DNA from: Billgrantia endophytica
GTDB taxonomy: Bacteria > Pseudomonadota > Gammaproteobacteria > Pseudomonadales > Halomonadaceae
Direction: 5' to 3'
DNA length: 64,000 nt
Assembly: GCF_002879615.1 (NCBI RefSeq)
Contig: NZ_PNRF01000041.1
Span: forward strand, 1-64,000
The position numbers were made by a program, and so were the translations under genes. Under the pieces are notes generated by a model that was not told the DNA's origin, did not search any database, and saw only the letters and a list, made by a program, of their open reading frames with translations. Each line of letters opens with the position of its first letter. Position 1 is the first letter of the stretch. Positions 1 to 52,764 of this stretch are shown in pieces.

Positions 1-1313
1 GAGCCTTCATCATCCGTAGGTACTGGTGGCGACAATGGCATTGCCAGGCGCGGTACTGATGCCGTCGTCGCCAGTTCGACCAGAGCAGCATGTGTGATAA
101 AGTCTGGTTTCCCCGCATGAACCAGCGATTCATCAATCGCCGGAGTTCAGGTAAGGTCCAGGCGATACGCGTCACGGTGTTTTTTTTCCTGCGGAATGGC
201 CTGCCGCATGGCGACCAGCAAAGCGTGCGCCAGAAGCGCCAGGGTGATATGGCGATGCCAACTGCCCCAACGCCGAACTTCATAGTCATCCAGCCCACAT
301 TCCCCCTTGGCTATCTGGAAGCCTTGCTCGATTTTCCAACGCTGACCGGCAACCCGCACCAAGGTATGAATCGATGCCTGCTCTCGCGGGGCAAAGACCA
401 CATAGTAGGCCCGCTCGTCCGGCTATGAGCGGCTGCGTCGGATCAGCAGATAATGCCCCCAACGACGATCCTCCTCGTTGAGTTGGAGGCGCATCAACGG
501 TGTCAACGCCCACTCGTACCATCGTTCTCCCTTGCTGCCAGCGCCGGCAGACAAGGTCTGCCACGCATCATCAGGCAGGGCCGCCATGCTCTCATCAGCC
601 CGGGTGTACTGGAAGCTCTTCCACCACAAGGGTTCATTGCAAGCCACTTCCAGAACAAAGGGTTGCGATCGCTGCTCGAGCCAGAAGCGCAGGCGGCGAT
701 TGCCTCCGTAGATGCTGTCTCCTGTTACCCAGGAGGCCGGCGTGCCGTGATCCAGGGCACGCTCCAGCATGCGACGAGCAAGCTCCGGTTTGCTGGCAAA
801 TTCGACGTCATCGGGAATCCCGGCACGCCGGCAACGATGGCGATCCTCGGTCCAGGACTTGGGCACGTACAGGGCGCGATCCAGGAACGCATGCCCAGCA
901 GGACTGGCGTAGAGAAGAAAGACCCCAATTTGGCTGTTTTCGACACGCCCGGCCGTGCCACTGTACTGGCGCTGTACGCCGACGGAGTGCTGGCCTTTCT
1001 TGATGAAGCCGGTCTCGTCCAGCACCAGCACACTCTCAGGATCGCCCAGCAACTCGATGACCCATTGGCGAAGCCTATCCCGCGCGTCATCCGCATCCCA
1101 GCGCGCCCGATCCAGCAGGTATTGGACGCCATCAGGAGACACATCGCCCAACCATTCGGCGAGTTGCCAGCCATTCTTGCGCTCACATCGGCTGAGCAAT
1201 CCTTTGATATATCCCATGGCCCGCTCGCGGGTTTCCGAGCGAGGAAAGAGCGGTCCAAGTCGTTGGGCCAGGTCATCGAAGCGGTCGACAATGGCGGTTT
1301 CTAGTGACGGCAT
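1..1313 (-). pseudogene. IS701-family DDE transposase, inactivated
   Basis: This is an insertion-sequence transposase reading right to left, starting at 1313 and running off the left edge. DDE-type landmarks are visible: VLDETGF (first Asp), VTGDSIYGG (second Asp) and QRWKIEQGF (Glu), followed by a WRRRHQ-type tail. The frame is interrupted by an in-frame TAG at 423-425, probably a CAG to TAG change because the protein continues in the same frame with PDERAYYVVFAP. A frameshift near 147-150 then moves the conserved tail (PELRRLM...LLWSNWRRRHQ) into another frame. Two independent lesions make it non-functional. Family assignment rests on the overall look of the protein and the Asp/Asp/Glu spacing. 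Confidence 0.85.
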
Positions 1314-1878
1314 ATCTCATCCACGAAAACGTTAGGATTCAATATCATGCAGTGTAGTCAAATTTAGCTACGGCTGTAGTACTAGTACATAACATCGAGA
1401 AGTTGGCGAACGATGGACAGTTGCCCGCCTGATGCCAGGGGCAAAAGGGCCAATAGAGGGGCTTCGGGAAGCCCATGGAGCCGGCCTTTGGCAGCTTGTT
1501 GATGCCAAAACGGCTGACCATGCACAGGAACTCAGGTAACGGATTCTTTGGCGATCGTGACAAAAAATCAAGAACCAGGCGGTGGGATCGACCCGGGTTT
1601 GGGTTTTTCTACAGCCTCGTTATATCAGGTCTCACTGAACGTGGTGGTGAAACTTTGGCGTCGCCGTAGTTGCTCGAGGCACACCGGCTTGTCGGTTGCT
1701 CGATGAACGATGCGTAAACATCCTGAGAGGCAACAAGCCTTGCCTTCTTTTTTCCATAGAGATTTTACAAGCAGCTAGCGCTCCGGATTCTTTAAATAAA
1801 AATTCATAAAAGTGAAATAAAAGCATCAAGCTTAGATATTAGCATAAACCATCGAAGTGTCCATAGGAGGAGAAGGGT
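1314..1878. other. Intergenic stretch, probable IS edge and no clear gene
   Basis: No convincing gene is seen. The right edge of the IS701-type element probably lies near 1381, where a CTAG tetranucleotide (1382-1385) fits the 4-bp YTAR target preference of that family; this is inference, since the left end is outside the window. Positions 1400-1660 look like decayed coding sequence on either strand, but I could not assign a family. From about 1740 the sequence becomes AT-rich and leads into the LysE-type gene. Confidence 0.35.
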
Positions 1879-2502
1879 GTGAGTATAAGCATGTGGCTTG
1901 CTTTTCTAACAGCTTCAGTGGTAGTGAGTTTATCTCCTGGAGCAGGGGCTGTAAACACTATGAATAGCGGCATAAATTATGGATTACGCTATTCAGTATC
2001 CACAGTGTTAGGATTGCAGCTTGGATATGCAGCCCAAATATTAGTTGTCGCTGTTGGTCTAGGCGCATTGCTCGCATCATCCACGGTGGCATTTTCATTT
2101 ATAAAATGGGCGGGAGTTGCGTACCTAATGTGGCTGGGAGTTCAAAAATGGAATACAAGAACCTCATGGGACGTAATTGAGTGCAGGAAAGAAAGTAGCA
2201 AAAAGCTATTCTGGAAATCAACTCTGATTAACTTAACTAATCCCAAAGCCACTGTTTTCCTTGTTGCTCTACTGCCGCAGTTTTTATCTAACTCGTCCTA
2301 TTCATATCTTCTCCAACTATTAGTGTTAGGAACAACTCTTCTTGTGGTCGATCTTATCGTGATGTTTTGCTACGCAGCGCTGGCGAGCCAGTTTAAGGTT
2401 TTTATAACCTCAGGAGCTAGGATGAAAGTCATGAATAGAATTTTTGGCGCTTCCTTTATACTGGCGGCAATTGCCCTTTCAAGCTATAATAAAAACAGCT
2501 GA
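1879..2502 (+). CDS. LysE/RhtB family amino-acid exporter
   Basis: This is a 207-residue inner-membrane protein of the LysE/RhtB superfamily, which exports amino acids or related metabolites. The N-terminal segment with LSPGAGAVNTMNSG matches the family's SPGP-type motif. About six hydrophobic segments follow, with a conserved NPKATVF around residue 120. The start is GTG at 1879 because a strong AGGAGG (1865-1870) sits 8 bases upstream. The gene is clearly more AT-rich than the chromosome further right, suggesting recent acquisition. Substrate cannot be told from sequence. It could serve the aldolase/aminotransferase cassette 4 kb downstream, but other genes lie between. Confidence 0.9.
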   Translation: MSISMWLAFLTASVVVSLSPGAGAVNTMNSGINYGLRYSVSTVLGLQLGYAAQILVVAVGLGALLASSTVAFSFIKWAGVAYLMWLGVQKWNTRTSWDVIECRKESSKKLFWKSTLINLTNPKATVFLVALLPQFLSNSSYSYLLQLLVLGTTLLVVDLIVMFCYAALASQFKVFITSGARMKVMNRIFGASFILAAIALSSYNKNS

Positions 2503-2639
2503 CAAGAACAGTTATTTATATATTTGTTTTATATCTCCACTGTTCACTATGAATTGACCCCAGTAATTGTCGGTTGGTTTTGAGATGAATATCCCTATCT
2601 ACCACATGGATCATTCTAGATTTCATCTAGAAAACCCTG

Positions 2640-2672
2640 CTTCATCGTTTGTTCATCGCATCTTCATGTTAT
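2640..2672 (+). promoter_or_regulatory. Three 11-bp direct repeats resembling a Pho box
   Basis: CTTCATCGTTT, GTTCATCGCAT and CTTCATGTTAT follow each other with an exact 11-bp period, each a 7-mer with a TTCAT core plus a 4-base spacer. The PhoB box has the same architecture (CTGTCAT plus a 4-base AT-rich spacer, repeated). The repeats lie 77 bases before the PhnD-like start. The architecture is seen; PhoB binding is inferred. Confidence 0.45.
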
Positions 2673-2748
2673 TGACCTAGGGGTGTCATGCCACGGCGTC
2701 AGAGTAATTGCGTCTCAACGGCCTTTATTATCCCCAATGGAGATTGAA

Positions 2749-3705
2749 ATGATTACTATACCTCGCCAGCTGCTAGCAACTACCATCGTTGGACTACTAT
2801 CCACTGCTGCCCTTCAAGCCAGCGCTGATTTATCATCACGTTATTCTGATATAGATGGAGACATGATTGCCGATATTCCTACAGATGAAAACCAGTGGAC
2901 CGATCCTGATACCTTGGTATTCGCTTATACTCCTGTGGAAGATCCGGCCGTCTACGCTGAAGTTTGGTCAGATTTTCTCGACCACCTCGGTGAGGTGACG
3001 GGCAAAGAAGTGCAGTTCTTTCCAGTGCAGTCCAACGCTGCCCAGCAGGAGGCCCTACGTGCTGGGCGCGTACACGTTGCTGGATTCAATACGGGTGGCG
3101 TGCCGATGGCAGTGAATTGCGGTGGCTTTCGTCCATTTGCCATGATGGCAGGTGATGACGGTAGTTTTGGTTATGAAATGGAAGTTATTACGTATCCAGG
3201 CAGCGGTATCACAACCGTAGAAGACCTAGCAGGCAGGGAACTTGCCTTCACCTCACAGACTTCTAACTCGGGCTTTCGTGCCCCTTCTGCGATCATCAAG
3301 TCCGAGTTTGGAATGGAAGCTGGAGTCGATTTTGATACCCCATTCGCTGGCACTCATGAGAATTCAATCCTTGGCGTGATCCATAAGGACTATGAAGCAG
3401 CTGCCATTGCAAACTCAGTTATTACTCGAATGAAGGCGCGAGGTGTCATTAACGAGAATGACTATGAGGTAATATATACTTCCGCAACGTTCCCCACAAC
3501 TCCCTATGGCACCACTCATAACTTGCACCCAGAGCTTCAAGAAAAAGTCCAAGAGGCGTTCTTCAGTTACGATTGGGAAGGTTCCCCCCTACAAGCCGAA
3601 TTCTCTAACAATGGCGAAAGCCAGTTTATACCCATCAACTACGCAGAGCGCTGGGAAATTATTCGCACCATCGCCGAAGCGAATGGTGTAACCTACGACT
3701 GCTAA
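2749..3705 (+). CDS. PhnD-like phosphonate/phosphite/phosphate ABC transporter binding protein
   Basis: This is a periplasmic solute-binding protein of about 318 residues related to PhnD. A signal peptide (MITIPRQLLATTIVGLLSTAALQASA) is followed by family segments such as DTLVFAYTPVEDP, FFPVQSNAAQQEAL, VAGFNTGGVP, SGFRAPSAIIKS and a THENSILG loop. I chose ATG 2749 because a GGAG lies seven bases upstream and the signal peptide begins there; the frame is open from 2683. No intact permease follows, only a ruined ATPase gene, so the protein is probably an orphan or works with a transporter encoded elsewhere. The exact ligand is unknown. Confidence 0.85.
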   Translation: MITIPRQLLATTIVGLLSTAALQASADLSSRYSDIDGDMIADIPTDENQWTDPDTLVFAYTPVEDPAVYAEVWSDFLDHLGEVTGKEVQFFPVQSNAAQQEALRAGRVHVAGFNTGGVPMAVNCGGFRPFAMMAGDDGSFGYEMEVITYPGSGITTVEDLAGRELAFTSQTSNSGFRAPSAIIKSEFGMEAGVDFDTPFAGTHENSILGVIHKDYEAAAIANSVITRMKARGVINENDYEVIYTSATFPTTPYGTTHNLHPELQEKVQEAFFSYDWEGSPLQAEFSNNGESQFIPINYAERWEIIRTIAEANGVTYDC

Positions 3706-3783
3706 TGTCCGGCAATTCATCATGTAGCGGCTGGGAAGCCTAACTTCCTAGCCGCTTGCCGCTTTGTCCAGGGAGAAACCCCT

Positions 3784-4051
3784 ATGCTGAGTCTGTCTCA
3801 GGTCTGCCGCTACCCTATTGGGGACCATGCGTTCACCGATATGGACCTTACTCTGCCAGCCGGGCAGATGATGGCCCTAACCGGCCCCTCTGAGGGGTGG
3901 TATGAGCATCCTAATTCGCTGCGTAAACCGCTTGGCCGAGCCCACCTTGGGTAGCATACGCATGGGCGACACTGAGCTGACCCGCCTCTCCGGCCGTATC
4001 GTGCTCATCTCGGAATGGATCGCATCCCGGGTTCGCCATGCCATCATCTAA
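3784..4051 (+). pseudogene. phnC-type ABC ATPase remnant
   Basis: After a good ribosome site (AGGGAG at 3769-3774) ATG 3784 begins a PhnC-like start (MLSLSQVCRYPIGDHAF, then [17 protein letters not shown]). The Walker A loop is then lost: the expected GxGKST is replaced by an out-of-frame join. Another frame continues with [18 protein letters not shown] and [11 protein letters not shown], classic PhnC sequence, and ends at TAA 4049. This is a frameshifted, truncated remnant of the ATPase that should have followed the phnD-like gene. Confidence 0.75.
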
Positions 4052-4406
4052 GCGCTCATGAGTGAAAGACACACTGATCACAACATCATTATCCTGGACC
4101 TGATACGACATGGTGAGTCAGTGGGCGGGTGCTAACAGTGTGCCCTATCGACTACCCATTGGGAGAGCAAAAGAATGCGGCTCTCTGAGAAACTGACAGG
4201 ACATATCGTAACGCCATCGCTACCTTGCCAGTTGGGATTACATTGGCGAAACCAGCCTAGAGGAAGGGGACGGTCAGGGTAACACAAACCTGCGTCTCAG
4301 CTTTAGCGCCCAGTGATGAGGTAATTAAGTTATATTTAATATTTTCTGCCCTCTTAATACTCTAGATTGGCCTGACAATCAAACAGTAATACCATTAAGG
4401 AGAAGC
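4052..4406 (+). other. Decayed coding sequence, unassigned
   Basis: No intact gene is present. A short coding-like tail (YIGETSLEEGDGQGNTNLR... ending LRLSFSAQ, stop near 4315) can be read after an apparent frameshift near 4230, so this may be the end of another broken gene, possibly an outer-membrane protein. It cannot be a functional product. The last ~80 bases are AT-rich and probably hold the promoter of the next gene. Confidence 0.3.
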
Positions 4407-5213
4407 ATGATGCTCAAGAGAGAAAAAGCCTTGCTAGAAACTGCTAAGCTTGCAGCTTTCGAAGCTGGTGCCCTGTTGCGCGAGGGCTATCGGAAGGACG
4501 GTCGTGTCGCCTTTGAGCGCAAGGGGGCATCTGACTTCGTCACCCACTACGATAAGGCTGCCGAGAGCACTATCATCAAGCGTATTCACAGTACCTTTCC
4601 CAACATTGCCTTTCTCGGCGAGGAGACCGGTATTACGGCTGGCTCCGATAGTGACTACACCGTGGTCGTCGATCCCCTCGACGGCACCAATAACTTTCTA
4701 CACGGGGTTCCTCACTTTTCGGTTTCTATTGCCGTCACTAAAGGGGATGAGCTGCTGATCGGTATCGTCTATCATCCACTGCTGAACGAAATGCTCTGGG
4801 CAGGAGTCGGTACTGGCGCATTCCTCAATGACAAGCGGCTCGTGAGACCTATAGCCAGGCCACTTACCGAGATGCTGGTGAGTACCTGTCTGCCTTATAA
4901 CGATAAAGGCGACTGCGCGACCGCCCTAAAACAGCTCACTATTCTAATGCCGCAGGTTGCCGGCATCCGCAGCCCTGGTTCAGCAGCACTCGAGATCGCC
5001 TATACTGGCTTAGGGCGCTTTGATGCCTTTTGGTCCCAAGGCGCACGACTTGATTTCTGGGACGTTGCAGCTGGAATCGTCATAGCACGAGAAACAGGCT
5101 GCATGGTGACCGATCTCACCGGCAACCCCACCCCTGCCAAGTGGAACAGCTTGGTGGTAGCACATCCGCAGCGGCATAGAGCATTGCTGAATTGTCTGAA
5201 CGCTACAGGATAA
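4407..5213 (+). CDS. Inositol monophosphatase family phosphatase
   Basis: This 268-residue enzyme belongs to the Mg2+-dependent, Li+-sensitive phosphatase family (SuhB/CysQ/HisN type). Metal-site motifs are intact: LGEETG near residue 73, DPLDGTNNF at residues 89-97 and LDFWDVAAG with Asp219. AAGGAG sits just upstream of the ATG at 4407. The family removes phosphate from inositol phosphate, PAP, histidinol phosphate or other small phosphates; the substrate here cannot be decided. Its place behind a PhnD-like binding protein suggests a role in using organic phosphorus, which is inference. Confidence 0.88.
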   Translation: MMLKREKALLETAKLAAFEAGALLREGYRKDGRVAFERKGASDFVTHYDKAAESTIIKRIHSTFPNIAFLGEETGITAGSDSDYTVVVDPLDGTNNFLHGVPHFSVSIAVTKGDELLIGIVYHPLLNEMLWAGVGTGAFLNDKRLVRPIARPLTEMLVSTCLPYNDKGDCATALKQLTILMPQVAGIRSPGSAALEIAYTGLGRFDAFWSQGARLDFWDVAAGIVIARETGCMVTDLTGNPTPAKWNSLVVAHPQRHRALLNCLNATG

Positions 5214-5389
5214 AACGAGATCATGATACTATATTTTTCTCCCACAAATAATTGCTTCTTAGCGTCATATTAATTTACTCCGACCCCGGAGCATAAAAAG
5301 ACCGAAGCAGCTTCCTAAAACTAACCGTGCCTTTGTTAAGTTCTTGTTCTAAAGTTTTCGTGTAGTATCCATATAAGGATCTGACACGG

Positions 5390-6048
5390 ATGGAAACCAT
5401 GGCCGAGCGCATTGTTGCCCCTCTAACTGAACTTGAACAGCAGACGCTAAACTCGGCCTATCACTAAGGCGAGAAGCGTGCCCTACGTCGGCGTGCGCAC
5501 GCTATCACTGCTGAGTGACCAAGGCCATACTATCAACCAAATCAGTGAGATACTGCAGGTTCGCCGCGATGCTGTACACGATGGTTCAAACATAGTGGGA
5601 AGCGTCGGGCCTCGATGGGCTCAACGATAAGCCCTGCGAGGTGACCGCGTACTCACATAGCCGAGCCGGGGGCTCCCACACCACCACCGAACCGGAGACA
5701 ACCAAGACGGTCATCGAAGCGTTCGACCGGTTTGTGGTCCAGAAAGACCCGGATACCTTCGCTGTCGTGGCGCTCAAGAGTGCCAGCATGCATCGCTCCA
5801 TAACCTACAGAGGGAAGATTGTGGAGTGGATATCGCATCGTGTGCACTTGGTCTACCTATTGGCTTACTTGCCGGAGCTGAACCTGATTGAGATTCTGTG
5901 GCGGAAAATGAAGTATGCATGGCTGCCGCTGAGTGCGTACTTCTCGTTTGACCGCCTCTGTGATGAGGTACACCGCCTGCTCGGTGGCTACGGAACTGAT
6001 CGTGCGATTAATTTTGAAGAAGAACTTATAAAAATGATACTAGGATGA
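5390..6048 (+). pseudogene. IS630-family transposase, degenerate
   Basis: The N-terminus (METMAERIVAPLTELEQQTL) is cut by an in-frame TAA at 5465. The helix-turn-helix part (LLSDQGHTINQISEILQVRR, then WEASGLDGLNDKP) is spread over shifted frames. The middle of the gene is missing. The C-terminal part is open from 5641 to 6048 and contains VYLLAYLPELNLIEILWRKMKY, typical of IS630. The usual catalytic Asp motif (LDNAxxH) reads LKSASMH, so an active-site Asp is also lost. Confidence 0.85.
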
Positions 6049-6309
6049 TCGAGGTCGTTGCGATCCCGTCTCCAGAAAGCGTGACATTTTAAGTGCATTA
6101 ATATTTAAATAAAATTAAATTAATCATGCATCTTGGTGAATTTTAAATAGAGTTTGTGTTATTGTTTTCAACTTATTGATTTTTAATTGTTTTCTGTAAG
6201 ACGATAAATCAACGTTAATCGGTTAAACATTGAAAAACTCACACTATGTAACTACCTTGAACTTGCCTTAGGGGCATGAACCTTTTCTCAAGTAGAACAT
6301 GGAGTGACT

Positions 6310-7218
6310 ATGAAAAACTCAAATAGAGTGGCAATCATCGGGACAGGAAGCATTGGGATTGATTTGATGTATAAAGCACTCAGATCAAACAAACTAGATT
6401 TAAGATTTGTTGTGGGACGCCGAGACGATAGTCCGGGTATTCGCGAAGCATTAAAACAGGGAGTTGTAGTCTCAAGCAGAGGTGTTGAGTTCCTTGAAGA
6501 AAACTTCAATGACTTTGACATTGTTTTTGATGCAACTTCTGCCGAATCGCATTTAGAAAATGAAAAGATTTTCAAAAAGTACAATAAACTAGCAATAGAC
6601 CTCACCCCCGCTAAGATTGGAGATCTTTGTGTCCCAGTTATCAATTTGTCATCCTTGGAAAAAAGTAGAAATATAAACTTAATAACTTGTGGCGGGCAAG
6701 CAAGCCTACCACTTGTCCATGCTCTCAGAAAATCATGTAAGAAAGTCAATTATGTAGAAGTTATATCAAGCATATCCTCTGATAGTGCTGGCTTGGCAAC
6801 AAGAGAAAATCTCAATGAATATGTCACCACAACTGAGTTTGCACTTAGAAGGTTTAGCGGGTCGGATGTGTCTAAAGCGATATTAAATATAAATCCAGCC
6901 ATTCCTCAAGTATGCATGCAGACAACCTTGTATGCCAATTGCTCAAGATTAGATAAAGAAGCACTTGAAAGATATACAAAAAAAATCATCCAAAGTGTAA
7001 AGCAGTACGTACCAGGCTACAACTTAGTTCTTGAGCCGCTAGTTAAAGATGAAAGTGTGACAGTTGCTGTTCAAGTTCATGGAAGTGGTGATTATTTGCC
7101 TGGGCACGCAGGAAACCTTGACATTATTAACTCTGCAGCAATAGTCATTGCAGAGAGGCGCTATATTATAGATAAATCATCTTTCAGCTCTGAAACCCAC
7201 GAAGAGGAATACGCATGA
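6310..7218 (+). CDS. Acylating acetaldehyde dehydrogenase, DmpF/BphJ-like
   Basis: This 302-residue protein resembles acetaldehyde dehydrogenase (acylating), which interconverts acyl-CoA and aldehyde using NAD(P)H. The N-terminal Rossmann motif is IIGTGSIG and the catalytic cysteine lies in ITCGGQAS (Cys127 from this start). The DmpG-binding C-terminal half is present. At the end of beta-strand 2, where NAD-specific homologues carry an acidic residue, it has GRRDDS; the Arg pair hints at NADP preference. ATG 6310 has GGAG five bases upstream. The stop overlaps the aldolase start (ATGA), so the two are co-translated. The gene is strongly AT-rich. The usual meta-cleavage genes (hydratase, dioxygenase) are absent. 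Confidence 0.85.
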   Translation: MKNSNRVAIIGTGSIGIDLMYKALRSNKLDLRFVVGRRDDSPGIREALKQGVVVSSRGVEFLEENFNDFDIVFDATSAESHLENEKIFKKYNKLAIDLTPAKIGDLCVPVINLSSLEKSRNINLITCGGQASLPLVHALRKSCKKVNYVEVISSISSDSAGLATRENLNEYVTTTEFALRRFSGSDVSKAILNINPAIPQVCMQTTLYANCSRLDKEALERYTKKIIQSVKQYVPGYNLVLEPLVKDESVTVAVQVHGSGDYLPGHAGNLDIINSAAIVIAERRYIIDKSSFSSETHEEEYA

Positions 7219-8225
7219 AAAACAACAGTATATTAATTAGCGACTGCTCACTTAGAGACGGTAATCATGCCGTAAAGCATCAACTTAGTATCGATCAAAT
7301 CGCTGAGTATTGTGAAGGGGCTGATCGTGCTGGGTTAGATATTATAGAGGTTGGGCATGGATATGGGCTAGGGGCATCCTCTAGTGCATTTGGCATCTCA
7401 AAAGTTGGTGATGAGGCCATGCTGAAAGTCGCAAGAGAGAAATGCAAACAATCTATGCTTGGAATTCACTTTGTGCCGGGAGTTGGGAAGCACTCTGAAC
7501 TTGATATGGCAATTGATATAGGAGTTGATGTTTTTCGAGTCGCCAGCCACTGTACAGAGAGTAATATAACGTATAGATCCATTGGATATTTAAAAAGAAA
7601 AGAAAAAATAGTATTTGGTGTATTGATTATGTCTCATATGGCTGATGCTGATAGGCTTCTAAATGAAGCGCTAGGTATGCAATCAGCTGGAGCTGATGGA
7701 ATTATTCTTATGGACAGTGCTGGATATTCAACTCCCGATATTGTTGGTGAAAAGGTTTCAACTCTGAAAAACAACTTAAGTGTAAAAGTTGGCTATCATG
7801 CACATAATAATCTTGGTCTTGCTGTTGCAAATTCTGTTGTAGCAGCAGAATCAGGCGCATCAATTATTGATGCAACAATTAAAGGGTTCGGTGCAGGGGC
7901 CGGAAACGCACAACTTGAAGCCGTTGTGGCTGTGCTAGAGCGGTATGGTTACTCAATGAACTTAAAATTCCAAGACCTGATAGACTTATCCTCATACGCT
8001 GAGAGAAATATCATTGCTAGAATACCCGATATCAAAACAATTAACATAATGACCGGCATGTACGGCCTGTTTACAGGATATGGTCCTTATATACAGAAGA
8101 TATCTTCTGATTTTGGCGTGAATATATTTGAGCTTTGCGAGAGACTAGCCAAGAGAAGGCTAGTGGCCAGTCAAGAGGATATTATAATTGAAGAGGCAAG
8201 TAGGCTGGCGAAATCAACTGATTAA
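7215..8225 (+). CDS. 4-hydroxy-2-oxovalerate aldolase-like enzyme, DmpG type
   Basis: This 336-residue TIM-barrel enzyme of the HMGL-like/DmpG family cleaves or forms 4-hydroxy-2-oxoacids from pyruvate and an aldehyde. Active-site features are intact: LRDGNHA (Arg14, Asp15, His18) and the metal pair HAH (His195, His197) in GYHAHNNLG. The C-terminal helical region that docks the dehydrogenase is present (MTGMYGLFTGYGPYI). It overlaps the preceding dehydrogenase by four bases, as in catabolic operons where the two form a channelling complex. The next gene is an aminotransferase and no catabolic partner is present, so the likely direction is synthesis. That direction is inference. Confidence 0.88.
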   Translation: MKNNSILISDCSLRDGNHAVKHQLSIDQIAEYCEGADRAGLDIIEVGHGYGLGASSSAFGISKVGDEAMLKVAREKCKQSMLGIHFVPGVGKHSELDMAIDIGVDVFRVASHCTESNITYRSIGYLKRKEKIVFGVLIMSHMADADRLLNEALGMQSAGADGIILMDSAGYSTPDIVGEKVSTLKNNLSVKVGYHAHNNLGLAVANSVVAAESGASIIDATIKGFGAGAGNAQLEAVVAVLERYGYSMNLKFQDLIDLSSYAERNIIARIPDIKTINIMTGMYGLFTGYGPYIQKISSDFGVNIFELCERLAKRRLVASQEDIIIEEASRLAKSTD

Positions 8226-8343
8226 AGTAAATAATTTAATAGTAAATTCCTCCACTTGTCTCTCGGGAGATATAGCCTGATCGGCGAGTGGGGTGTTTAT
8301 TTAATTTCTCATATTAACCCTATCTAAAGCCGGGAAATAGAAC

Positions 8344-9540
8344 ATGTTTGATAACCTTGAATGGATTTCTCCAGATCCGATATTATCTCTTAGCGAAAAA
8401 TTTATAGAAGACAGAAATCCAAGAAAGGTTGATCTTGGTATTGGGCTGTATAAAAACAGTAATGGTATAACCCCTATAATGGAGTCGGTAAAGATTGCTG
8501 AGAAATATTTAGTTTCACAGGCAGAAGATAAGGTTTACAAGGGCTCCGTCGGACTTGACGGATATTGCAATAAAATAATAAGTCTATTGTATAAAGACGC
8601 TCCTGAAATCATCGCTGAAGAACGAGTTACAGCTGCTCAAACCGTCGGTGGGACAGGGGCTGTCAGGCTTGCCGCTGAATTAATCAAGTCGTACAGCCCA
8701 AGAAGAATTGTATGGATATGCGATCCAACATGGGAAAATCACAGAGGTATATTTTCTCACTTGGGCGTGAATATTCGAAGCTATCCTTATCTAAATGAGA
8801 AAGGCGAGTTTAGCTTTGACTGCATGATTGAAAGCATTAGTAAAATTCCATTTGAAGATATCCTGGTGCTCCACGGATGCGGTCATAATCCTACAGGATA
8901 TGACCTTACAAACAATCAGTGGATGCATCTTCTTGAAATAGTTAAAGAAAAACGGATATTTCCTATTATTGACATGGCGTATCATGGGCTAGCAGATAAT
9001 CTAAACAAGGACTCTTATGGCGTCAACCTGTTTTCCGAGCAACTGGACGAAATGTTTGTAGCATATTCGTGCTCCAAGAATTTTGGCCTATATCGAGATA
9101 GAGTGGGCGCCCTAGTTATATTGGGAAAGAACAAAGACCATTGCTCGAAAATAAAACTACATGCGTCTAATTTAGCAAGGGTGAATTACTCTAGTCCGCC
9201 TATCCATGGCGCTTCTATAGTTAATGAAGTATTGTCATCCAATGAGCTTTATCAAATATGGGCAGCTGAGCTTGAACGCATGACGACTAGAGTCAAGGGT
9301 GCTAGAAAAATGCTCGTCCGAGAAAGCAGCGAACAGGGTTGCAGCGAAATATTTCTTGGCGCAGCTAGAGGGGAAGGCTTATTCTCAACAATATTGCTAA
9401 ATCTTAACGAAATAAGAAGACTGAAAGAAGTCTATAATATTTACATGCTTGAAATAGGTCGAATAAATATTTCTGGAATAAATAAAAACAACATTGAATA
9501 CGTTGTTTCGGCTATAAAGCAAGTTGCAGGTACCAGATAG
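8344..9540 (+). CDS. Class I aminotransferase, AspC/TyrB-like
   Basis: This 398-residue PLP enzyme belongs to the aspartate/aromatic aminotransferase family. Visible features are GIGLYKNSNGITPIM near the N-terminus, HGCGHNPTG (Asn of the PLP pocket), IIDMAYHG (Asp pairing with the PLP nitrogen), SCSKNFGLYRDRVG with Lys245 as the Schiff-base lysine, and GRINISG with the substrate carboxylate Arg. It follows the DmpFG-like pair after 118 bases that contain an inverted repeat (CCACT/AGTGG), in the same AT-rich composition and orientation. It plausibly aminates the 4-hydroxy-2-oxoacid made by the aldolase; substrate is inferred from context only. Confidence 0.87.
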   Translation: MFDNLEWISPDPILSLSEKFIEDRNPRKVDLGIGLYKNSNGITPIMESVKIAEKYLVSQAEDKVYKGSVGLDGYCNKIISLLYKDAPEIIAEERVTAAQTVGGTGAVRLAAELIKSYSPRRIVWICDPTWENHRGIFSHLGVNIRSYPYLNEKGEFSFDCMIESISKIPFEDILVLHGCGHNPTGYDLTNNQWMHLLEIVKEKRIFPIIDMAYHGLADNLNKDSYGVNLFSEQLDEMFVAYSCSKNFGLYRDRVGALVILGKNKDHCSKIKLHASNLARVNYSSPPIHGASIVNEVLSSNELYQIWAAELERMTTRVKGARKMLVRESSEQGCSEIFLGAARGEGLFSTILLNLNEIRRLKEVYNIYMLEIGRINISGINKNNIEYVVSAIKQVAGTR

Positions 9541-9563
9541 GCTGGCGTGTACAGTAATGGTAT

Positions 9564-12149
9564 TCACCTGACACTTTGCCTGATCAACCCACTCACCCTT
9601 ACTACCTCCCTCGTCACCGCTTCATCCAGCATCCCGCGGCCGGTTTCCACCACGGTGAGCCAGTCGCGGGCGCGGGTGATGCCGGTGTAGACCAGCTCGC
9701 GGGTGAGGATGGGGTTGGGGGCGTCGGGGAGCAGCAGGGCGGTGTGGGTGAATTCTGAGCCCTGGGATTTGTGCACCGTCATTGCGAATACGGTTTCCAC
9801 CGCTTGCAGGCGGCTGGGCAGCACCCACTTGATGTCGCCGCTGCCGTCGCTGGCGGGGAAGGCGACGCGCAGCAGGGTGCGGCCGGGCGGTTCGGTTTCG
9901 CTGCGGGCTTCGGGCACGCCGAGGGTGATGCCGATATCGCCGTTCATCAGCCTCAGGCCGTAGTCGTTGCGGGTGACGAGCACCGGGCGGCCTTCGAACC
10001 AGCCCTGTTCCAGCTCCAGGTCGCTGGCCTTGAGCCAGCTGGCGCGGCGCAGGGCGCGGCCGATGCGCGGGTTCAGTCCTTCGATACCCCAGGGGCCTTT
10101 GCGCAGGGCACATAGCAATTGGAAGTGCCCGTGGGCGGCGAGTATCTGGCGGGCCCAGTCGTCATAGGGCTGGCGCGCTTCGCCTTCACCAAAGAAGGGC
10201 TGGGTGGGGCGCGCTGCCTGCATCACTTCCAGGTAGTGGGCATAGCCGCGGGGCGGGGCGATGAGCTCGCCGCGCCGGTCGTGGCGGCCTTCGCCGTTGT
10301 TGATAAAACCGGCCGGGTTGCCGTTCACCACCAGCCGGTCGAATGCCGTGTCGTCGGCGTCCGCCAGGGCGAGGCGGGCGATGTCGGCGTAGCGTGACTT
10401 TCCATCAGTGCCGAAGATCTCGCGCACGGCGCGTTTCTTCTCCTTGTGGTCGTGGCCAACACCGAGCGGGCGGTTGACCGCTTCGGCGAGCTGGCCGATG
10501 CCGCTCTTGGCATCGAAGCGGTGGCTCACCCGCAGCATGGCGATGGCCTGGTCCAGCGGCTGGCCGTCTGCGTCCCGGTGCTTTTCGGGTATCGGCGTGC
10601 CGATCACGCTCTCCAGCCAGTCGCAGGTGGCCGGGGTGTAGTGGCCGCCTTCGGCGCGCTGGCACAGGTCGCCGAGTACGGCGCCGGCTTCCACCGAGGC
10701 GAGCTGGTCCTTGTCGCCGAGCAGTACCAGCCGCGCCCTGGGCGGCATGGCGGTGAGCACGGCGGCCATCATCTCGATATCCACCATAGAGGCTTCATCG
10801 ATGACCAGTGCGTCCAGTGGCAGTGGGTTGCCGGCGTGATGGCGGAAGTGGCGGGTGTCGGGTCGGGAGCCGAGCAGGCGGTGAAGCGTGGTGACCTGCT
10901 GGGGGATGGCGCTGCGCAGCGTCTCGGGGGCATCACTCAAGCCTGTCAGATCGAGGCGCGCAACCTGGTCGGCGATCGATTCGTTGAGCCGGGCGGCGGC
11001 CTTGCCGGTGGGGGCGGCGAGATGGATGCGCAGCGGGCGCTGGCCTTCCCCCATGGCGAGTGCCTGAAGCAGGGCGAGCAGCTTGACCACGGTGGTGGTC
11101 TTGCCGGTGCCGGGGCCGCCGGTGATCACCGCGAAGCGCGAGCGGGTGGCCAGGGCGCAGGCGGCCTTCTGCCAGTCGGGCCCGGGGCCGGTCGGGGGTG
11201 CGGGGAATAGCGAGTCGAGAGCGGCGGCGAGAGTGGTGGTGCTGGTGACGTTATCCGGGCGCCTATCGGCGCCGTCGTGCGGCAGAGCCGTCCTCCCACA
11301 GGGTGCATCGGCAGTGTCGGTGGCGTTATCGGGGCGCCTGTCGGCGCCGTCGTGCGGCAGAGCCGTCCTCCCACAGGGTGCATTGGCAGGGTCGGTAGCG
11401 TTATCGGGGTGCCTGTCGGTGCCGTCGTGCGGCAGAGCCGTCCTCCCACAGGGAGCATCGGCAGGGTCGGTGGCGTTATCGGGGCGCCTGTCGGCGCCGT
11501 CGTGCGGCAGAGCCGTCCTCCTACAGGGGGCGTCGCTTGTGTCCAGTCTTGCCGAGATGTGGTGGCGGATATCCTGCTCGTATTGCCAGTAGCGGCGCAG
11601 GTAGAGCCGGGTGCTGTCGGGGCTTTCGAACTTCACCAGCGGGGTGTTGCCGGGCTGGTCGTCGCGGCCGTCGGCGACCAGCGGCGGGTGGTCCAGGGCG
11701 GCGCGCCAGGTGACGAGGTCGAGCCCGGCGAGCACGTCGCCGGGCAGCGGCGGCGGGTCGCTCAGGTCGTCGCCTTCCGGGGGAAGCGAGAGGGCGAGGT
11801 CCGGGGCGGCCAGGGTGGCGGCCAGGTCGAGGCACACATGGCCGCGTCCCAACTGGTGGCTGGCCAGCGCCGCGGCGAGCAGCAGCAGGGGAGAGGCGTC
11901 GCCCACCTCACGGTGCAGGAACACCGCCAGGGCGCGGTCCAGTGCCCGCAGCCAGCCGTGTTCCACCCAGCGGTCGAGCAGGGCGATAAGCGAGTCGACG
12001 TTGCTGAGTGCTTCATCCCGGGCTTCCGGCTGAGCGTCGTCCTGAGCGCTGGGGGCACTGTCAGGGGCGGTGTCGGAAGCCTCACCGAGCAGGTCCTCGA
12101 ACATATCGGGTGTGGCGTCGTGCATGTCGCCTTTCCTGCGTTTCGTCAT
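9564..12149 (-). CDS. recD: Exodeoxyribonuclease V alpha subunit RecD
   Basis: This 861-residue protein is the 5'-3' helicase of RecBCD. Walker A is ITGGPGTGKTTT, Walker B is LVIDEASMVD, and later helicase motifs include LLGDKDQLASVE and the C-terminal MTVHKSQGSEF and TGITRARD. It starts at ATG 12149 overlapping the recB stop (ATGA). Between the N-terminal domain and the helicase core it carries an in-frame insertion of four 25-residue repeats built on DAPCGRTALPHDGADR, listed separately. The insertion lies in a linker, so the enzyme probably still works. It is the last gene of the recC..recBD set. Confidence 0.95.
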   Translation of the reverse strand: MTKRRKGDMHDATPDMFEDLLGEASDTAPDSAPSAQDDAQPEARDEALSNVDSLIALLDRWVEHGWLRALDRALAVFLHREVGDASPLLLLAAALASHQLGRGHVCLDLAATLAAPDLALSLPPEGDDLSDPPPLPGDVLAGLDLVTWRAALDHPPLVADGRDDQPGNTPLVKFESPDSTRLYLRRYWQYEQDIRHHISARLDTSDAPCRRTALPHDGADRRPDNATDPADAPCGRTALPHDGTDRHPDNATDPANAPCGRTALPHDGADRRPDNATDTADAPCGRTALPHDGADRRPDNVTSTTTLAAALDSLFPAPPTGPGPDWQKAACALATRSRFAVITGGPGTGKTTTVVKLLALLQALAMGEGQRPLRIHLAAPTGKAAARLNESIADQVARLDLTGLSDAPETLRSAIPQQVTTLHRLLGSRPDTRHFRHHAGNPLPLDALVIDEASMVDIEMMAAVLTAMPPRARLVLLGDKDQLASVEAGAVLGDLCQRAEGGHYTPATCDWLESVIGTPIPEKHRDADGQPLDQAIAMLRVSHRFDAKSGIGQLAEAVNRPLGVGHDHKEKKRAVREIFGTDGKSRYADIARLALADADDTAFDRLVVNGNPAGFINNGEGRHDRRGELIAPPRGYAHYLEVMQAARPTQPFFGEGEARQPYDDWARQILAAHGHFQLLCALRKGPWGIEGLNPRIGRALRRASWLKASDLELEQGWFEGRPVLVTRNDYGLRLMNGDIGITLGVPEARSETEPPGRTLLRVAFPASDGSGDIKWVLPSRLQAVETVFAMTVHKSQGSEFTHTALLLPDAPNPILTRELVYTGITRARDWLTVVETGRGMLDEAVTREVVRVSGLIRQSVR
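11251..11533. repeat. 75-bp tandem repeat inside recD, about 3.8 copies
   Basis: Units start at 11251, 11326, 11401 and 11476, an exact 75-bp period (25 codons), so recD stays in frame. Each unit holds a palindrome of the type GGCGCCtgtcGGCGCC and the arm CGGCAGAGCCGTCCTCCCACAGGG. On the other strand this reads CTGTGGGAGGACGGCTCTGC, the general look of a Pseudomonas-type REP sequence. It appears to be an amplified intragenic REP-like element. Confidence 0.9.
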
Positions 12150-15100
12150 GCCGGCGTCTCCGTGTCGGTCGGCGCGGTGGCGGCGGTGCCCCTGCCTTGG
12201 AACAGCGTGTCCATCGCTTCGATCAGCTGGCGGGGCGGGCGCTCGGCGTAGACGCCGCGGCTCTCGGCGTTGGTACCCCGTAGGAAGACGGTGAGCGAGC
12301 CGCCGATGTGGCGGTCGTAATCGTAGCCCGGCAGGCGCGCCTTGAGCAGCCGGTGCAGGGCGAGCAGGTAGAGCGAGAACTGCAGGTCGTAGCGCTTCTC
12401 GGCCATGGCCAGGCGCATCGCCTCGGGGCTGTAGGCGGCGTCGTCCGGCCCCAGGTGGTTCGATTTCCAGTCGGCCACGTAGTAGCGCCCCTCGAACTCG
12501 AACACCAGATCGATAAAGCCCTTGAGCATGCCGTTGAGGGTGTCGGCATCCAGCGCGGGGCGCGGCAGACTGGTATCTACGTTGCTATACGGGCTGGGGA
12601 GTGTGTAAGCACTTACGAGGGCGTCCAGGTGGCGGGTGTCGACCTGGCTGGCGGCGAACCAGAACTCCATCTCCACCTGGTAGCTGGTCAGTGAGTCGAG
12701 CCGGAATTCACCCTTCGTCTCCGGTAGTGGTAGCGGGGCGGTAAGCAGGGCGCCGAACCACTCGTGCAGGGTGGGCAGCCACTGGGACCAGCCGCGCAGG
12801 TTGCAGCGCCGGGCCAGGGCGTCCTCCCGGGCCGCGGGGTCGGCGGCGGCACGGGCGAAACCCTGCCTGCCGGCCCACTCTAAAATCCCATGGAGGAAGG
12901 TGCCGGGGCCAGGGCCCCTTGGGAACCTGTGTAGGGAGGGCAGTGGTTCGCTCCGGCCGCTGTCATGCGGCTCCTCGATCACTTCCAGCGCGGTGGCCTC
13001 CAGTGAGGTGGCCGGCTCGGAGATCGGCTTAAGGGAACCGGCTGGCACGGTGTGTGCCGTGGTCGGGGCACTGTGAAAAGCGGCGCTGTAGAGTGTGTCA
13101 GCACTCACTGGGGGGGTAGGGCCAGGAGCAAGGGTGACGCCGTCGGCCGAGAGGCGCAGTGCTGAGTAGCTGGCGATCCACCAGTGTTCGCGGGCGGCAC
13201 GCTGGGGAACCCGCGCCTCGCCGAGGGGCTGCTCGGCGCTGCCCAGGTTGACGACGCGGGCGTGGGCCTGGGGCGCCGGTTCGATCCGGATGGCCTGGCA
13301 GCTGCCCTTGAGCCGGCCAAGGGTAGCGCCGAAATCAGCGGTGGCGATGGCAGCGCCGTTGGTAAGCACTTGCCCGATGGCGCTGCCTTCCAGCCCCTTG
13401 AGCGGCGCCATGCCCAGCCAGGTGGCGTGGCGGGCGCGGGTCAGCGCCACGTAGAGCTTGCGCAGGTCTTCGCCCAGACGTTCGCGGTCGACGGTGGCAA
13501 GCATCTCGTCGTCGGCTTCCAGGCTGATGCGCAGCCGGCCCTCGGCGTCGTGCCAGCGTAGCGGTGCGTCGTCTTTCTTCGTGGGGCGGTGGCCGCAGAT
13601 GAAGGGCAGGAACACCAGCGGGTACTCCAGCCCCTTGGACTTGTGGATGGTGATGACCTGCACCAGGTCGGCGTCGCTCTCCAGCCGCAGCTTGTGGGTA
13701 TCGCCGTGGCCTTCGGGGTTGGCGATGGCTTCGGCGAGGAAGCGGATCAGCGCGTGTTCGCCGTCGAGTTCCTGGCTGGCGTGCTGCAGCAGTTCGCCCA
13801 GGTGCAGGAGGTCCGTTAGCAAGCGCTCGCCTTCGCTGGCGGGGCCACTTGCCAGCAGCTGCGTGGCGATGGCGAAGTCGTTGATCAGCCGCCGCACCAG
13901 CGGCAGCACCCCCTGGCGCTGCCACAGGCGATGGTAGTCGCGGAACTGCATGACCCGGCTTTCCCAGGCCAGCTCATCCTCGTTCAAATGATTCAGCGTG
14001 GCGATATCGAGCCCCAGTACCGGAGTGGCCAGGGCGGTGTGCAGCTTGCGGGCATCGTCGGGCTCGGCACAGGCGTGCAGCCAGGCTTCCAGCTGTGGCG
14101 CCATGGGCGAGGCGAACACCTTGTCCTTGTCGGAGAGGTAGACGCTCTTCACCCCGCGCCGGGCCAGCGACTGGCGGATCGCCCGTGCCTCGCCCAGGCC
14201 ATTGACCAGCACCGCCATGTCGGAGGGCTTGAGCAGCTGGAGTTCGCCTTGCTCATTCTGGAAGCCGGTGCTGCCACTTTGGCCCTCGCTGAGAAGCTCG
14301 ACCATATGGGAGGCGCAGCGCTCGGCCATCACGCCGTGGTAGGCGGTCTTGGAGAGCGGCTCGTCGCTGTCGAGCTGCCACAGGGTCATGGCGGGCAGCG
14401 GCTGGCCCTGGCGGGTGAGTGCGTCCTTGCGGCCCTTCGCTGCTACAGCCACGAATGGCACCGGGTTGCCGCCGTCCGCCTCCTTGAACAGGAAGGCCCC
14501 AGGCGGATGCGCTTCGGCGAATTCGAAGCAGCGGTTGACTGCCTCGACCATCGCCTGGCTGGAGCGGAAGTTGGTGCCCAGGGTGACGTGGCGGCCCTCG
14601 GTGTCGCGGCGGGCGCGCAGATAGGTGTGGATGTCGGCGCCGCGGAAGGCGTAGATCGCCTGCTTGGGGTCGCCGATCAGGAAGACACCCGTGTTGTGAG
14701 AAGAGCCGCGGCCGTTCTCGTGGATGCGGTACACGCAGTCGAAGATGCGGTACTGCACCGGGTCGGTGTCCTGGAACTCGTCGACCAGGGCCACCGGGAA
14801 CTGACGGCGGATCTGCGCCCCCAGTGCCTCGCAGTTGGGGCCGGCGAGCGCCCGGTCGAGATGGGTCAGCAACTCGTTGGGGCCCATTTCGGCGCGGCGC
14901 TCCTGCTCGCGGTCGAGGCGTGCGCGACACCAGTGCACGGCATGGGTGAGCAGGTCGGCGTAGGGGTCGGGCAGGGCGTTGAGTTCGTCCTGCAGGGCCT
15001 CCAGCGCGGCCAGGGCGGGGTGGTTAGGCGGCTCGCCCTTGAGCCAGATATCGGCCATGCCCTGTGGCGTCAGGCGCTTCCAGGCGGCGTCGGTCAGGCC

Positions 15101-16225
15101 GGGCCAGGTGGCATCGCCTTGGCACCATTCGCGCAGTGCGCCCAGCCAGTTGGCGCGGCTTCGGGCATTGAAGCTCTGCCCCTTGAAGGCCTTCTGCCTG
15201 GCGGCCTGTTCGAACAGCGCCTCGCACTCGTCGGCCCATTGGGGCCAGGGGGCCTTTAGCTCGGCCAGGCGCTCGGCGGTCTCGCGCTGGGCGCGGGCCA
15301 CGGTTTCGCCGGGGGGTGGGGCGCCTTTCGCCAACGCCCCGCACTCGGGCATCAAGCCGCGCACCGCCCGGTGCAGCGCCTCGGGGGAGTCCCAGTGGCG
15401 TACCACGGCGGCGAGTTCGTCGTTGCCCAGCGGGTAGTAGAAGCTGCGCCAGTAGTCGCGCACCACCTCGAGTTCCAGCTCGGTCTGGTCGGTTTCCAGG
15501 TCCAGCGAGAACAGGCTGCCGCTGTCGAAGGCATGCTCGCGCAGCATGCGGTAGCACCAGCTGTGGATGGTCGAGACGGCGGCCTCGTCCATCCATTCGG
15601 CGGCGAGCTGCAGGCGCCGGGCGCAGGCGGGCCAGGTGGCGGGGGCATACTGGTCGCGCAGGGCGATGAGAAGTGGATCAAGACCCTCGCTACGGCCTGT
15701 CCCAGGTGCCCCTTGGCCAGTCTCGCCAGTTGCTTCGTCAGCAGGATTTCGCGGAGGCGCTGTGAACCCATCCTTGGGCGCTACATTCGGCATCCCTGCC
15801 GAATGACCTCCGCTACCCGAAGCGTCGGCAATGTTAGGCGCGGTTTCGGGCGCCTGTAGAGTGTCAGGCGCGGTTTCGGGCGCCTGTAGAATGTCGGGCG
15901 CGGCTTCGGGCGCCTGTGTAGAGCGCGCCTGTAAAAAAACATCCGCCGCTTCCACCAGCCGTGTGCGAATCCGTTCGCGCAGTTCCTGGGTGGCGGCGTT
16001 GGTGAAGGTGACGACGAGGATTTCGGGTGGTGTGAGCGGGCGTTCGAAGGCGGCGTCGTCGCCGGGCGAGCGGGCGCCCAGCACCAGGCGCACGTAGAGC
16101 AGAGCGATGGTGAAGGTCTTGCCGGTGCCGGCGCTGGCTTCGATCAAGCGGCTGCCGTGCAGCGGAAACTCGAGTGGGTCGAGTTGAGTGATCGTAGGAG
16201 GAAGGTAGTCAGCGGCAAGAGACAT
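12146..16225 (-). CDS. recB: Exodeoxyribonuclease V beta subunit RecB
   Basis: This is the ~1359-residue helicase-nuclease subunit of RecBCD. Walker A is IEASAGTGKTFTIAL, UvrD-type motifs include LVDEFQDTDPVQY and FLIGDPKQAIYAFRGAD, and the C-terminal nuclease active site is YYVADWKSNHLG. I chose ATG 16225 over the TTG at 16237 because GAGG lies just before it. The N-terminus (MSLAADYLPPTITQLDPLEF) looks rebuilt after an insertion separated it from recC; a stub of the original start remains at 22202-22252. Residues ~100-185 hold in-frame repeat insertions. It overlaps recD by four bases. Confidence 0.95.
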   Translation of the reverse strand: MSLAADYLPPTITQLDPLEFPLHGSRLIEASAGTGKTFTIALLYVRLVLGARSPGDDAAFERPLTPPEILVVTFTNAATQELRERIRTRLVEAADVFLQARSTQAPEAAPDILQAPETAPDTLQAPETAPNIADASGSGGHSAGMPNVAPKDGFTAPPRNPADEATGETGQGAPGTGRSEGLDPLLIALRDQYAPATWPACARRLQLAAEWMDEAAVSTIHSWCYRMLREHAFDSGSLFSLDLETDQTELELEVVRDYWRSFYYPLGNDELAAVVRHWDSPEALHRAVRGLMPECGALAKGAPPPGETVARAQRETAERLAELKAPWPQWADECEALFEQAARQKAFKGQSFNARSRANWLGALREWCQGDATWPGLTDAAWKRLTPQGMADIWLKGEPPNHPALAALEALQDELNALPDPYADLLTHAVHWCRARLDREQERRAEMGPNELLTHLDRALAGPNCEALGAQIRRQFPVALVDEFQDTDPVQYRIFDCVYRIHENGRGSSHNTGVFLIGDPKQAIYAFRGADIHTYLRARRDTEGRHVTLGTNFRSSQAMVEAVNRCFEFAEAHPPGAFLFKEADGGNPVPFVAVAAKGRKDALTRQGQPLPAMTLWQLDSDEPLSKTAYHGVMAERCASHMVELLSEGQSGSTGFQNEQGELQLLKPSDMAVLVNGLGEARAIRQSLARRGVKSVYLSDKDKVFASPMAPQLEAWLHACAEPDDARKLHTALATPVLGLDIATLNHLNEDELAWESRVMQFRDYHRLWQRQGVLPLVRRLINDFAIATQLLASGPASEGERLLTDLLHLGELLQHASQELDGEHALIRFLAEAIANPEGHGDTHKLRLESDADLVQVITIHKSKGLEYPLVFLPFICGHRPTKKDDAPLRWHDAEGRLRISLEADDEMLATVDRERLGEDLRKLYVALTRARHATWLGMAPLKGLEGSAIGQVLTNGAAIATADFGATLGRLKGSCQAIRIEPAPQAHARVVNLGSAEQPLGEARVPQRAAREHWWIASYSALRLSADGVTLAPGPTPPVSADTLYSAAFHSAPTTAHTVPAGSLKPISEPATSLEATALEVIEEPHDSGRSEPLPSLHRFPRGPGPGTFLHGILEWAGRQGFARAAADPAAREDALARRCNLRGWSQWLPTLHEWFGALLTAPLPLPETKGEFRLDSLTSYQVEMEFWFAASQVDTRHLDALVSAYTLPSPYSNVDTSLPRPALDADTLNGMLKGFIDLVFEFEGRYYVADWKSNHLGPDDAAYSPEAMRLAMAEKRYDLQFSLYLLALHRLLKARLPGYDYDRHIGGSLTVFLRGTNAESRGVYAERPPRQLIEAMDTLFQGRGTAATAPTDTETPA
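15751..15813. repeat. 63-bp palindromic element inserted in frame in recB
   Basis: The ends GCGGAGG and CCTCCGC are inverted repeats. Inside, ATTCGGCA and TGCCGAAT (15785-15792 / 15797-15804) form a perfect hairpin. The length of 63 bp (21 codons) keeps recB in frame. It looks like a small dispersed REP/MITE-type element captured in the coding region; dispersal elsewhere in the genome is not visible in this window. Confidence 0.6.
15837..15918. repeat. 30-bp tandem repeat in recB, nearly three copies
   Basis: Units begin at 15837, 15867 and 15897, each containing GCGCGGTTTCGGGCGCCTGT or a close variant. They encode a 10-residue repeat QAPE(A/T)APD(I/T)L in RecB, next to the 63-bp palindromic element. 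The region is a low-complexity linker not needed for the helicase motifs. Confidence 0.85.
16164..16183. repeat. 20-bp direct repeat, left copy (recB 5' end)
   Basis: Twenty bases are identical to 22215-22234. Both copies encode LDPLEF(P) of the RecB N-terminus on the minus strand. They bracket the insert carrying the AtoE-like, molybdoenzyme and LysR genes. Confidence 0.9.
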
Positions 16226-16309
16226 GGGCGTCCTCAAAAAACGCGAGCAAGCTCATATGGTGCACTAGGCGGGGTCTTTCCTCTACTTGGCAGGCATCTC
16301 ATTGGCATT

Positions 16310-17700: not shown

Positions 17701-17785
17701 TGTTGTTTCCTCTGCATATGGGGTGATGCATACCGCCGGAGGCGGCATGGATGGTCGAGGCGGCGTGTCGTGGAAATGTTGTTAT

Positions 17786-52707: not shown

Positions 52708-52729
52708 GCATCGCCATATAATAAAAAAA

Positions 52730-52748
52730 GCAAGGGGAAACCCCTTGC
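52730..52748. terminator. Hairpin after hasA
   Basis: GCAAGGGG and CCCCTTGC pair perfectly around AAA, with an A-run before the stem (a U-run only for the other strand). It likely stabilises hasA mRNA and lowers read-through into hasDEF. Confidence 0.6.
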
Positions 52749-52764
52749 CAAGAAAGAGAAGTAT

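Follow-up and report, generated by a model that had tools for sequence, protein, structure and literature searches.

Introduction

Homologues of DmpFG are best known from the breakdown of aromatic pollutants. Related chemistry serves biosynthesis in the nikkomycin route, in which NikA, NikB and NikT are the acylating dehydrogenase, the aldolase and the aminotransferase, respectively. Here, we describe a locus in a 64,000-nucleotide stretch of the Billgrantia endophytica genome (contig NZ_PNRF01000041.1, positions 1 to 64,000; hereafter the window), at which a dmpF-like and a dmpG-like gene are followed by the gene of an AspC-family aminotransferase and linked to an upstream exporter gene, rhtB. 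Judging from the sequences, we consider it reasonably probable that these four genes are a mobile biosynthetic cassette making and exporting a gamma-hydroxy-alpha-amino acid.

Several described systems bear on this proposal. According to the available part of PMC4021061, nikkomycin biosynthesis leads from picolinate-CoA to 4-(hydroxypyridyl)homothreonine. The accessible portion of PMC13397446 names the gamma-hydroxy-alpha-amino acid of nikkomycin and does not name NikA, NikB or NikT. The aldolase BphI is described, in the part of the review PMC3962088 at hand, as strictly (4S)-specific; the exchange Y290F abolishes stereocontrol, the double variants L87N/Y290F and L87W/Y290F are (4R)-specific, and L89A favours longer aldehydes. 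PimT, an RhtB-family exporter adjoining an antibiotic cluster, mediates the efflux of homoserine and of a signal, as stated in the available section of PMC2698837.

Results

The coordinates of the locus are collected in Table 1. An earlier note on this DNA had reported the dmpF-dmpG-aminotransferase trio on one strand, a 4-bp overlap between dmpF and dmpG, and intact catalytic residues, all of which were confirmed by the open reading frames (ORFs), family cut-offs and alignments. The DmpF-like protein scored 341.5 bits against TIGR03215 (acylating acetaldehyde dehydrogenase; cut-off 282.25), the DmpG-like protein 304.2 bits against TIGR03217 (4-hydroxy-2-oxovalerate aldolase; cut-off 286) and the aminotransferase 462.7 bits against PRK09257 (cut-off 377). 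Two in-frame starts are available to dmpF, GTG at 6304 and ATG at 6310, of which the latter was adopted. Its product belongs to the DmpF/BphJ family by its NAD-binding and dimerisation domains and its catalytic Cys127, with 7z3s and DmpF (1nvm_B) as solved relatives. The aldolase is of the DmpG type, with an HMGL barrel, a communication domain and the Arg/Asp/His catalytic set (R14, D15, H18 and HAH at 195-197). Aligned to E. coli AspC, the aminotransferase retains Y65, W130, N182, D210, Y213, K245, R253, R279 and R373. The residues listed for the three proteins are those to which we presumably can assign catalytic or binding roles. The 4.98-Mb host genome contains no second close DmpG, the next match scoring 50.9 bits.

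Together with rhtB, the trio recurs in all four close loci examined, i.e. the window, L007 (Halomonas sp. HyVt-328), L020 and L028, and the aldolases are 77-84% identical in the pairs measured. The outer neighbours, as far as identified, differ: recD- and recB-like ORFs in the window, yccS and recG in L007, HAD-type, cupin, AraC-type and metallo-hydrolase genes in L020, and cobalamin genes, transposases and a TauD-type gene in L028. The gene order is rhtB-phnC-phnD-phnE-IMPase-dmpF-dmpG-aminotransferase in L007 and rhtB-IMPase-dmpF-dmpG-aminotransferase in L028; in L020, rhtB and a binding protein gene are divergent from dmpF-dmpG-aminotransferase. In samples with one genome per species, the close form was rare. 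It was found in 3 of 275 genomes of the family (8 more had only matches of 34-37%), in 2 of 390 genomes drawn from the order, the host's own included, and in 1 of 48 genomes of the family of G338 (one of the two genomes that carry L020 and L028), where one more had a match at 52%. A draw from the phylum at E 1e-85 returned 6 of 398 genomes, namely the window's, G338 and four at 46-52%, and a search of the genus around G366, of no weight for the frequency, returned none of 25.

In line with the earlier note, no catabolic partner of the trio was detected: among 28 of the window's proteins scanned by Pfam, trio included, there was no match to an extradiol dioxygenase, hydratase/FAH, tautomerase or oxalocrotonate decarboxylase. 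Meta-cleavage genes were likewise absent among the scanned neighbours in L007 (10 proteins), L020 (10) and L028 (7), so that the three families do co-occur without such genes in the four close loci. One protein encoded 8.8 kb from the trio in L020 is known only as a cupin.

The rhtB product scored 228.4 bits against the homoserine-efflux model PRK10520 (cut-off 209) and did not reach the cut-off set for its sister model TIGR00949. The L007 exporter reached 221.7 bits against PRK10520, and the exporters beside the trio in L007, L020 and L028 are 60-65% identical to that of the window.

Composition sets the four genes apart. GC content at third codon positions (GC3) is 0.39 in rhtB, 0.33 in dmpF, 0.31 in dmpG and 0.36 in the aminotransferase gene, as compared with 0.84, 0.84 and 0.77 in three host ORFs (9564-12149, 12146-16237 and 16375-17748), the first two of which we read as recD-like and recB-like; the AT-richness noted earlier is thus real. 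The binding protein gene (0.47) and the phosphatase gene (0.58) between rhtB and the trio lie higher. In L007, L020 and L028 as well, GC among the measured genes is lowest in rhtB and the trio, with the phosphatase gene of L028 close to the unit (0.392 versus 0.334-0.371). On this GC pattern, we define the mobile unit as consisting of rhtB and the trio, and class the genes of the binding protein and the phosphatase as frequent neighbours. The unit is therefore larger than the 6310..9540 assumed previously, where the trio was recognised but the upstream rhtB overlooked. Similarly, the IS630 element said to flank the trio is indeed dead, but does not mark an edge, as it sits between linked genes. 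Its sequence has stops and frame changes across the three plus-strand frames, its only open ORF being 5641-6048 (DDE_3 match on 5641-6045), and gives short matches to annotated IS630 genes on Halomonas and Iodobacter plasmids.

The aldolase pocket distinguishes the cassette from catabolic DmpG/BphI enzymes. Residues were mapped through an alignment to DmpG (1NVM), the offset being derived from the catalytic residues, so that BphI Leu87, Leu89 and Tyr290 correspond to His85, Val87 and Phe286 of the window protein. In a signature alignment of 34 loci, from which duplicates and the distant HMGL-family hits L002-L006 and L008 were left out, the Leu/Tyr pair occurs in 17/17 catabolic-clade loci (9 halomonad loci of unexamined context and 8 plasmid loci of examined context). 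The window aldolase has His85/Phe286 in place of this pair, unlike catabolic DmpG/BphI. In its clade, none of 17 members has Tyr at position 286 (Phe in 15, Cys in 2), and position 85 is His in 12, Phe in 4 and Leu in 1, an Embleya protein of unannotated context. Among the best 120 of 6137 database matches, the window counted, 119 have His85/Phe286 and 1 has Phe/Phe. A 56-row tree separated the window's clade from the 17 catabolic-clade rows (100/100, branch 0.98), under a long-branch warning that includes L026, L066 and L070; the cassette aldolases (10 rows, 9 different) form one clade within it (100/100). A DmpG homologue of 501 amino acids with an added cupin domain (PF07883), P0057, was also encountered.

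The aminotransferases of the cassette, in 15 rows (12 different), are also a clade of their own (100/100, branch 1.09); AspC, TyrB and the five AspC-like enzymes that the four genomes encode at other loci lie outside it. Despite the kept pyridoxal phosphate- and carboxylate-binding residues, including both arginines, the window enzyme does not group with housekeeping AspC/TyrB. The clade has YKGS in place of the YLGI stretch of AspC and a rebuilt GLFS segment. Among 120 listed matches, 14 clade relatives have 49-59% identity and the next match 42%; the named members are Halomonas or Marinomonas. From sequence, such a distinct clade would argue against an ordinary aspartate-only enzyme without excluding one.

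Gene contexts of aldolase relatives were compared on stretches that were examined in part and on plasmid gene tables that are incomplete (in L074, dmpF itself is unlisted). In each of the 8 annotated Leu/Tyr loci, the neighbours include a hydratase, an oxalocrotonate-type decarboxylase, a tautomerase or an FAH-family gene, and none of the 8 has an aminotransferase in the listed stretch of these incomplete tables. In the window's clade, some context was available for 16 loci, and in 13 of them the examined neighbours include neither such a catabolic gene nor an extradiol dioxygenase. Seven of the 16 (the four cassettes, L024, L025 and L026) have a class I aminotransferase gene no more than two genes away from dmpFG, and L027 has one farther off; L024-L027 are aldolase relatives in apparent small-molecule clusters. 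For instance, in the Phaeobacter cluster L024:4958-13272, dmpG-dmpF-aminotransferase is accompanied by two ATP-grasp genes, of which one encodes an L-amino acid ligase C-terminal domain, and the product of the cluster looks like a dipeptide containing a gamma-hydroxy-amino acid. Rhizobium lusitanum L026:10001-16196 has the order dmpG-dmpF-carbamoyltransferase-aminotransferase-HpcH/HpaI-family gene, possibly for a carbamoylated gamma-hydroxy-amino acid. Four surface-sugar-like loci (L033, L035, L036 and L040) all encode DegT and sugar dehydratase/epimerases; a thiamine pyrophosphate enzyme is found in L035, L036 and L040, the 10 proteins scanned in L033 including none, and glycosyltransferase matches are present in L036 and L040. 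The dmpFG genes of these loci, which belong to the Phe286 clade, may serve the formation of branched sugars by providing an aldehyde or 4-hydroxy-2-oxo acid. A recurring Streptomyces/Kitasatospora plasmid cluster (L067, L068 and L069) reads FAH-dmpF-dmpG-(KASIII)-ACP-CoA ester lyase-MaoC-GNAT, KASIII being found in two of these FAH loci.

Table 1. Features of the cassette locus, with positions in the window.
Feature	Position	Strand	Evidence
LysE/RhtB-family exporter, homoserine/homoserine-lactone efflux type (rhtB)	1879..2502	+	PRK10520, recurrence, GC3
PhnD/PtxB-type periplasmic binding protein, unit membership uncertain	2683..3705	+	Pfam Phosphonate-bd
IMPase-family phosphatase, unit membership uncertain	4407..5213	+	Pfam Inositol_P
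Dead IS630 transposase remnant within the unit	about 5380..6048	+	DDE_3 match, broken frames
DmpF-like acylating aldehyde dehydrogenase	6310..7218	+	TIGR03215, Cys127
DmpG-like class II pyruvate aldolase, His85/Val87/Phe286 versus BphI Leu87/Leu89/Tyr290	7215..8225	+	TIGR03217, alignment to 1nvm_A, tree
dmpG-aminotransferase gap with hairpin	8226..8343	+	fold z -2.9
AspC-family aminotransferase, cassette-specific clade; Schiff-base Lys245, Arg279, Arg373	8344..9540	+	PRK09257, clade 100/100

The two uncertain neighbours were considered as core genes. The phosphatase lies between rhtB and dmpF in 3/4 loci; it was ruled out, being present in 55 of 275 family genomes, 3 of them cassette carriers and 52 others, and also beside phnE without a close cassette (L092). 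A copy of the window's binding protein with 85% identity adjoins the cassette in L020; as a lone core gene it was downgraded in view of paralogues with 68-70% identity elsewhere in the host genome.

The gap between dmpG and the aminotransferase gene can fold into a hairpin in all four loci. Besides the window's value (Table 1), z is -5.5, -1.9 and -3.7, the fold at -1.9 being weak (9 of 200 shuffles were as low), and the four hairpin sequences look unrelated on inspection. The window hairpin, which received no terminator score in a pattern scan, may be an attenuator or processing site. No known RNA family reached its gathering score in 1300-9700. Elsewhere in the window, at 52093-56158, ABC and HlyD secretion genes come after the gene of a HasA-type haem-binding protein.

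Discussion

In the scheme that we infer for direction, substrate, channelling, stereochemistry, product, export and role, the DmpF-like enzyme would reduce an acyl-CoA, acetyl-CoA being the simplest guess, to an aldehyde that is channelled to the DmpG-like aldolase. Addition to pyruvate would give a 4-hydroxy-2-oxo acid, probably in the (4R) form, and the aminotransferase, probably drawing the amino group from glutamate or aspartate, would convert it into a gamma-hydroxy-alpha-amino acid to be sent out by the RhtB-type exporter. With an acetyl group as the acyl moiety, the product would be 4-hydroxynorvaline, a relative of homoserine. The biosynthetic route to a 4-hydroxy-2-amino acid suggested in the earlier note is favoured by the contexts of the relatives, the active-site signature, the exporter and the aminotransferase clade.

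The same note knew of no described pathway with exactly this trio; that no such pathway has been described is not borne out in view of nikkomycin. There, too, an acyl-CoA is converted to an aldehyde, followed by aldol addition and transamination to a gamma-hydroxy-amino acid. The window cassette differs in its AspC-family aminotransferase, its exporter and its compact set of four genes, and its scanned neighbours include none for a CoA ligase or for nucleoside or peptide formation; NikA and NikB are compared with it by their described roles. With DmpFG and BphIJ it shares family, catalytic residues, communication domain and overlapping genes. Unlike them, it has His85/Phe286 instead of Leu87/Tyr290, belongs to a separate aldolase clade, and includes an aminotransferase and an exporter but no hydratase, decarboxylase or dioxygenase among the scanned neighbours. 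The Phaeobacter/Leisingera plasmid clusters L024 and L025 resemble the cassette in having dmpG-dmpF-aminotransferase and, over the stretch annotated, no meta-cleavage genes. In contrast to it, they encode ATP-grasp ligases (two annotated for L024 and one for L025) as well as FAD/NAD(P)-binding proteins, have dmpG ahead of dmpF and Cys at aldolase position 286, and contain an aminotransferase without similarity to the window's at E 1e-5. The window exporter, above the homoserine-efflux family cut-off like RhtB/PimT exporters, differs from these in its linkage to an aldolase-aminotransferase trio. Thus, the principle is known from nikkomycin; new are the four-gene unit, its own aminotransferase clade, the exporter and an aldolase pocket like that of the (4R) mutants. 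Among the open-access papers listed in literature searches, we recognised none that describes an identical cassette.

The chemistry of DmpFG and the aminotransferase is reversible, which counts against a biosynthetic direction and would equally serve a catabolic cassette, in which a gamma-hydroxy-amino acid is imported, deaminated and cleaved to pyruvate and an aldehyde that yields acyl-CoA, the exporter relieving overflow. A PhnD-type binding protein or full phnCDE importer beside the cassette in 3/4 loci would fit such uptake. However, the one linked transporter shared by 4/4 loci belongs to an exporter family, the binding proteins, which fall into two distant types (21% identity), match phosphonate/phosphite binders, and the aldolase groups with apparently biosynthetic homologues and lacks the Tyr kept in 17/17 catabolic-clade loci. 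We consider breakdown unlikely. The phosphonate-type binding proteins in these 3/4 loci and the phosphatase would also be explained by a phosphonate substrate or by phosphonoacetaldehyde as the aldehyde, for which RhiG of rhizocticin biosynthesis offers an analogy. This appears very improbable. The L028 stretch contains no such binding protein (L007 query), the nearest window-type copy in that genome being far off, and phnD-phnE-IMPase looks like a separate module because it occurs together in another halomonad (L092) without a close cassette. The phosphonate product was further lowered because no phosphoenolpyruvate mutase exceeded the cut-off in the four genomes (best 134 bits, cut-off 320), in a search that had no positive control and was also negative in 14 control genomes. 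The least probable explanation, to which we give hardly any credence, is an ordinary DmpFG remnant of a meta-cleavage operon beside an unrelated aminotransferase, with no joint function. DmpFG families are indeed mostly known from catabolism and the window does contain IS fragments, but the dmpF-dmpG-aminotransferase order is kept in four loci with aldolases of high identity, the aminotransferase relatives end in the gap from 49% to 42% with their named members confined to Halomonas or Marinomonas, and the aldolase has the His/Phe signature.

Besides reversibility, several observations weigh against a dedicated biosynthetic cassette. No acyl-CoA ligase or product-using enzyme is linked to it among the scanned neighbours. 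Since close relatives of rhtB occur in Halomonas sp. PGE1 and Salinicola sp. JS01, which are unnamed among the listed dmpG and aminotransferase matches, the exporter gene is not exclusive to the cassette. The window's copy of the unit may have been interrupted by the IS630 remnant. In the window's clade, an FAH-family gene is adjacent in 3/16 loci (Streptomyces/Kitasatospora), a carboxymuconolactone decarboxylase family gene lies nearby in L023, an HpcH/HpaI-family gene in L026 and a 4-hydroxyphenylacetate 3-hydroxylase-domain gene in L027. Finally, the aldolase pocket seems, by sequence, to resemble the engineered (4R) BphI mutants, and by analogy a His85/Phe286 enzyme probably yields the (4R) form; this extrapolates from Asn and Trp at position 87, as His was not among the residues engineered there.

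The biosynthetic cassette, apparently mobile and small and at home in salt-loving, marine-type bacteria, allows a more specific and rather doubtful proposal: (4R)-4-hydroxynorvaline (gamma-methylhomoserine) or a longer analogue would be made and exported and could lactonise outside to gamma-methyl homoserine lactone, acting as an antimetabolite or signal, and the His/Phe aldolases would be a natural (4R)-selective, synthesis-running DmpG family. If true, these aldolases match an outcome earlier engineered in BphI. In genome annotation, DmpFG homologues are as a rule assigned to aromatic catabolism. A pair of residues that follows both clade and gene context would allow annotators to tell building and breaking versions apart and would direct attention to uncharacterised small-molecule clusters, and the cassettes would provide natural aldolase-dehydrogenase pairs for gamma-hydroxy amino acids with a predicted stereochemistry opposite to that of BphI.

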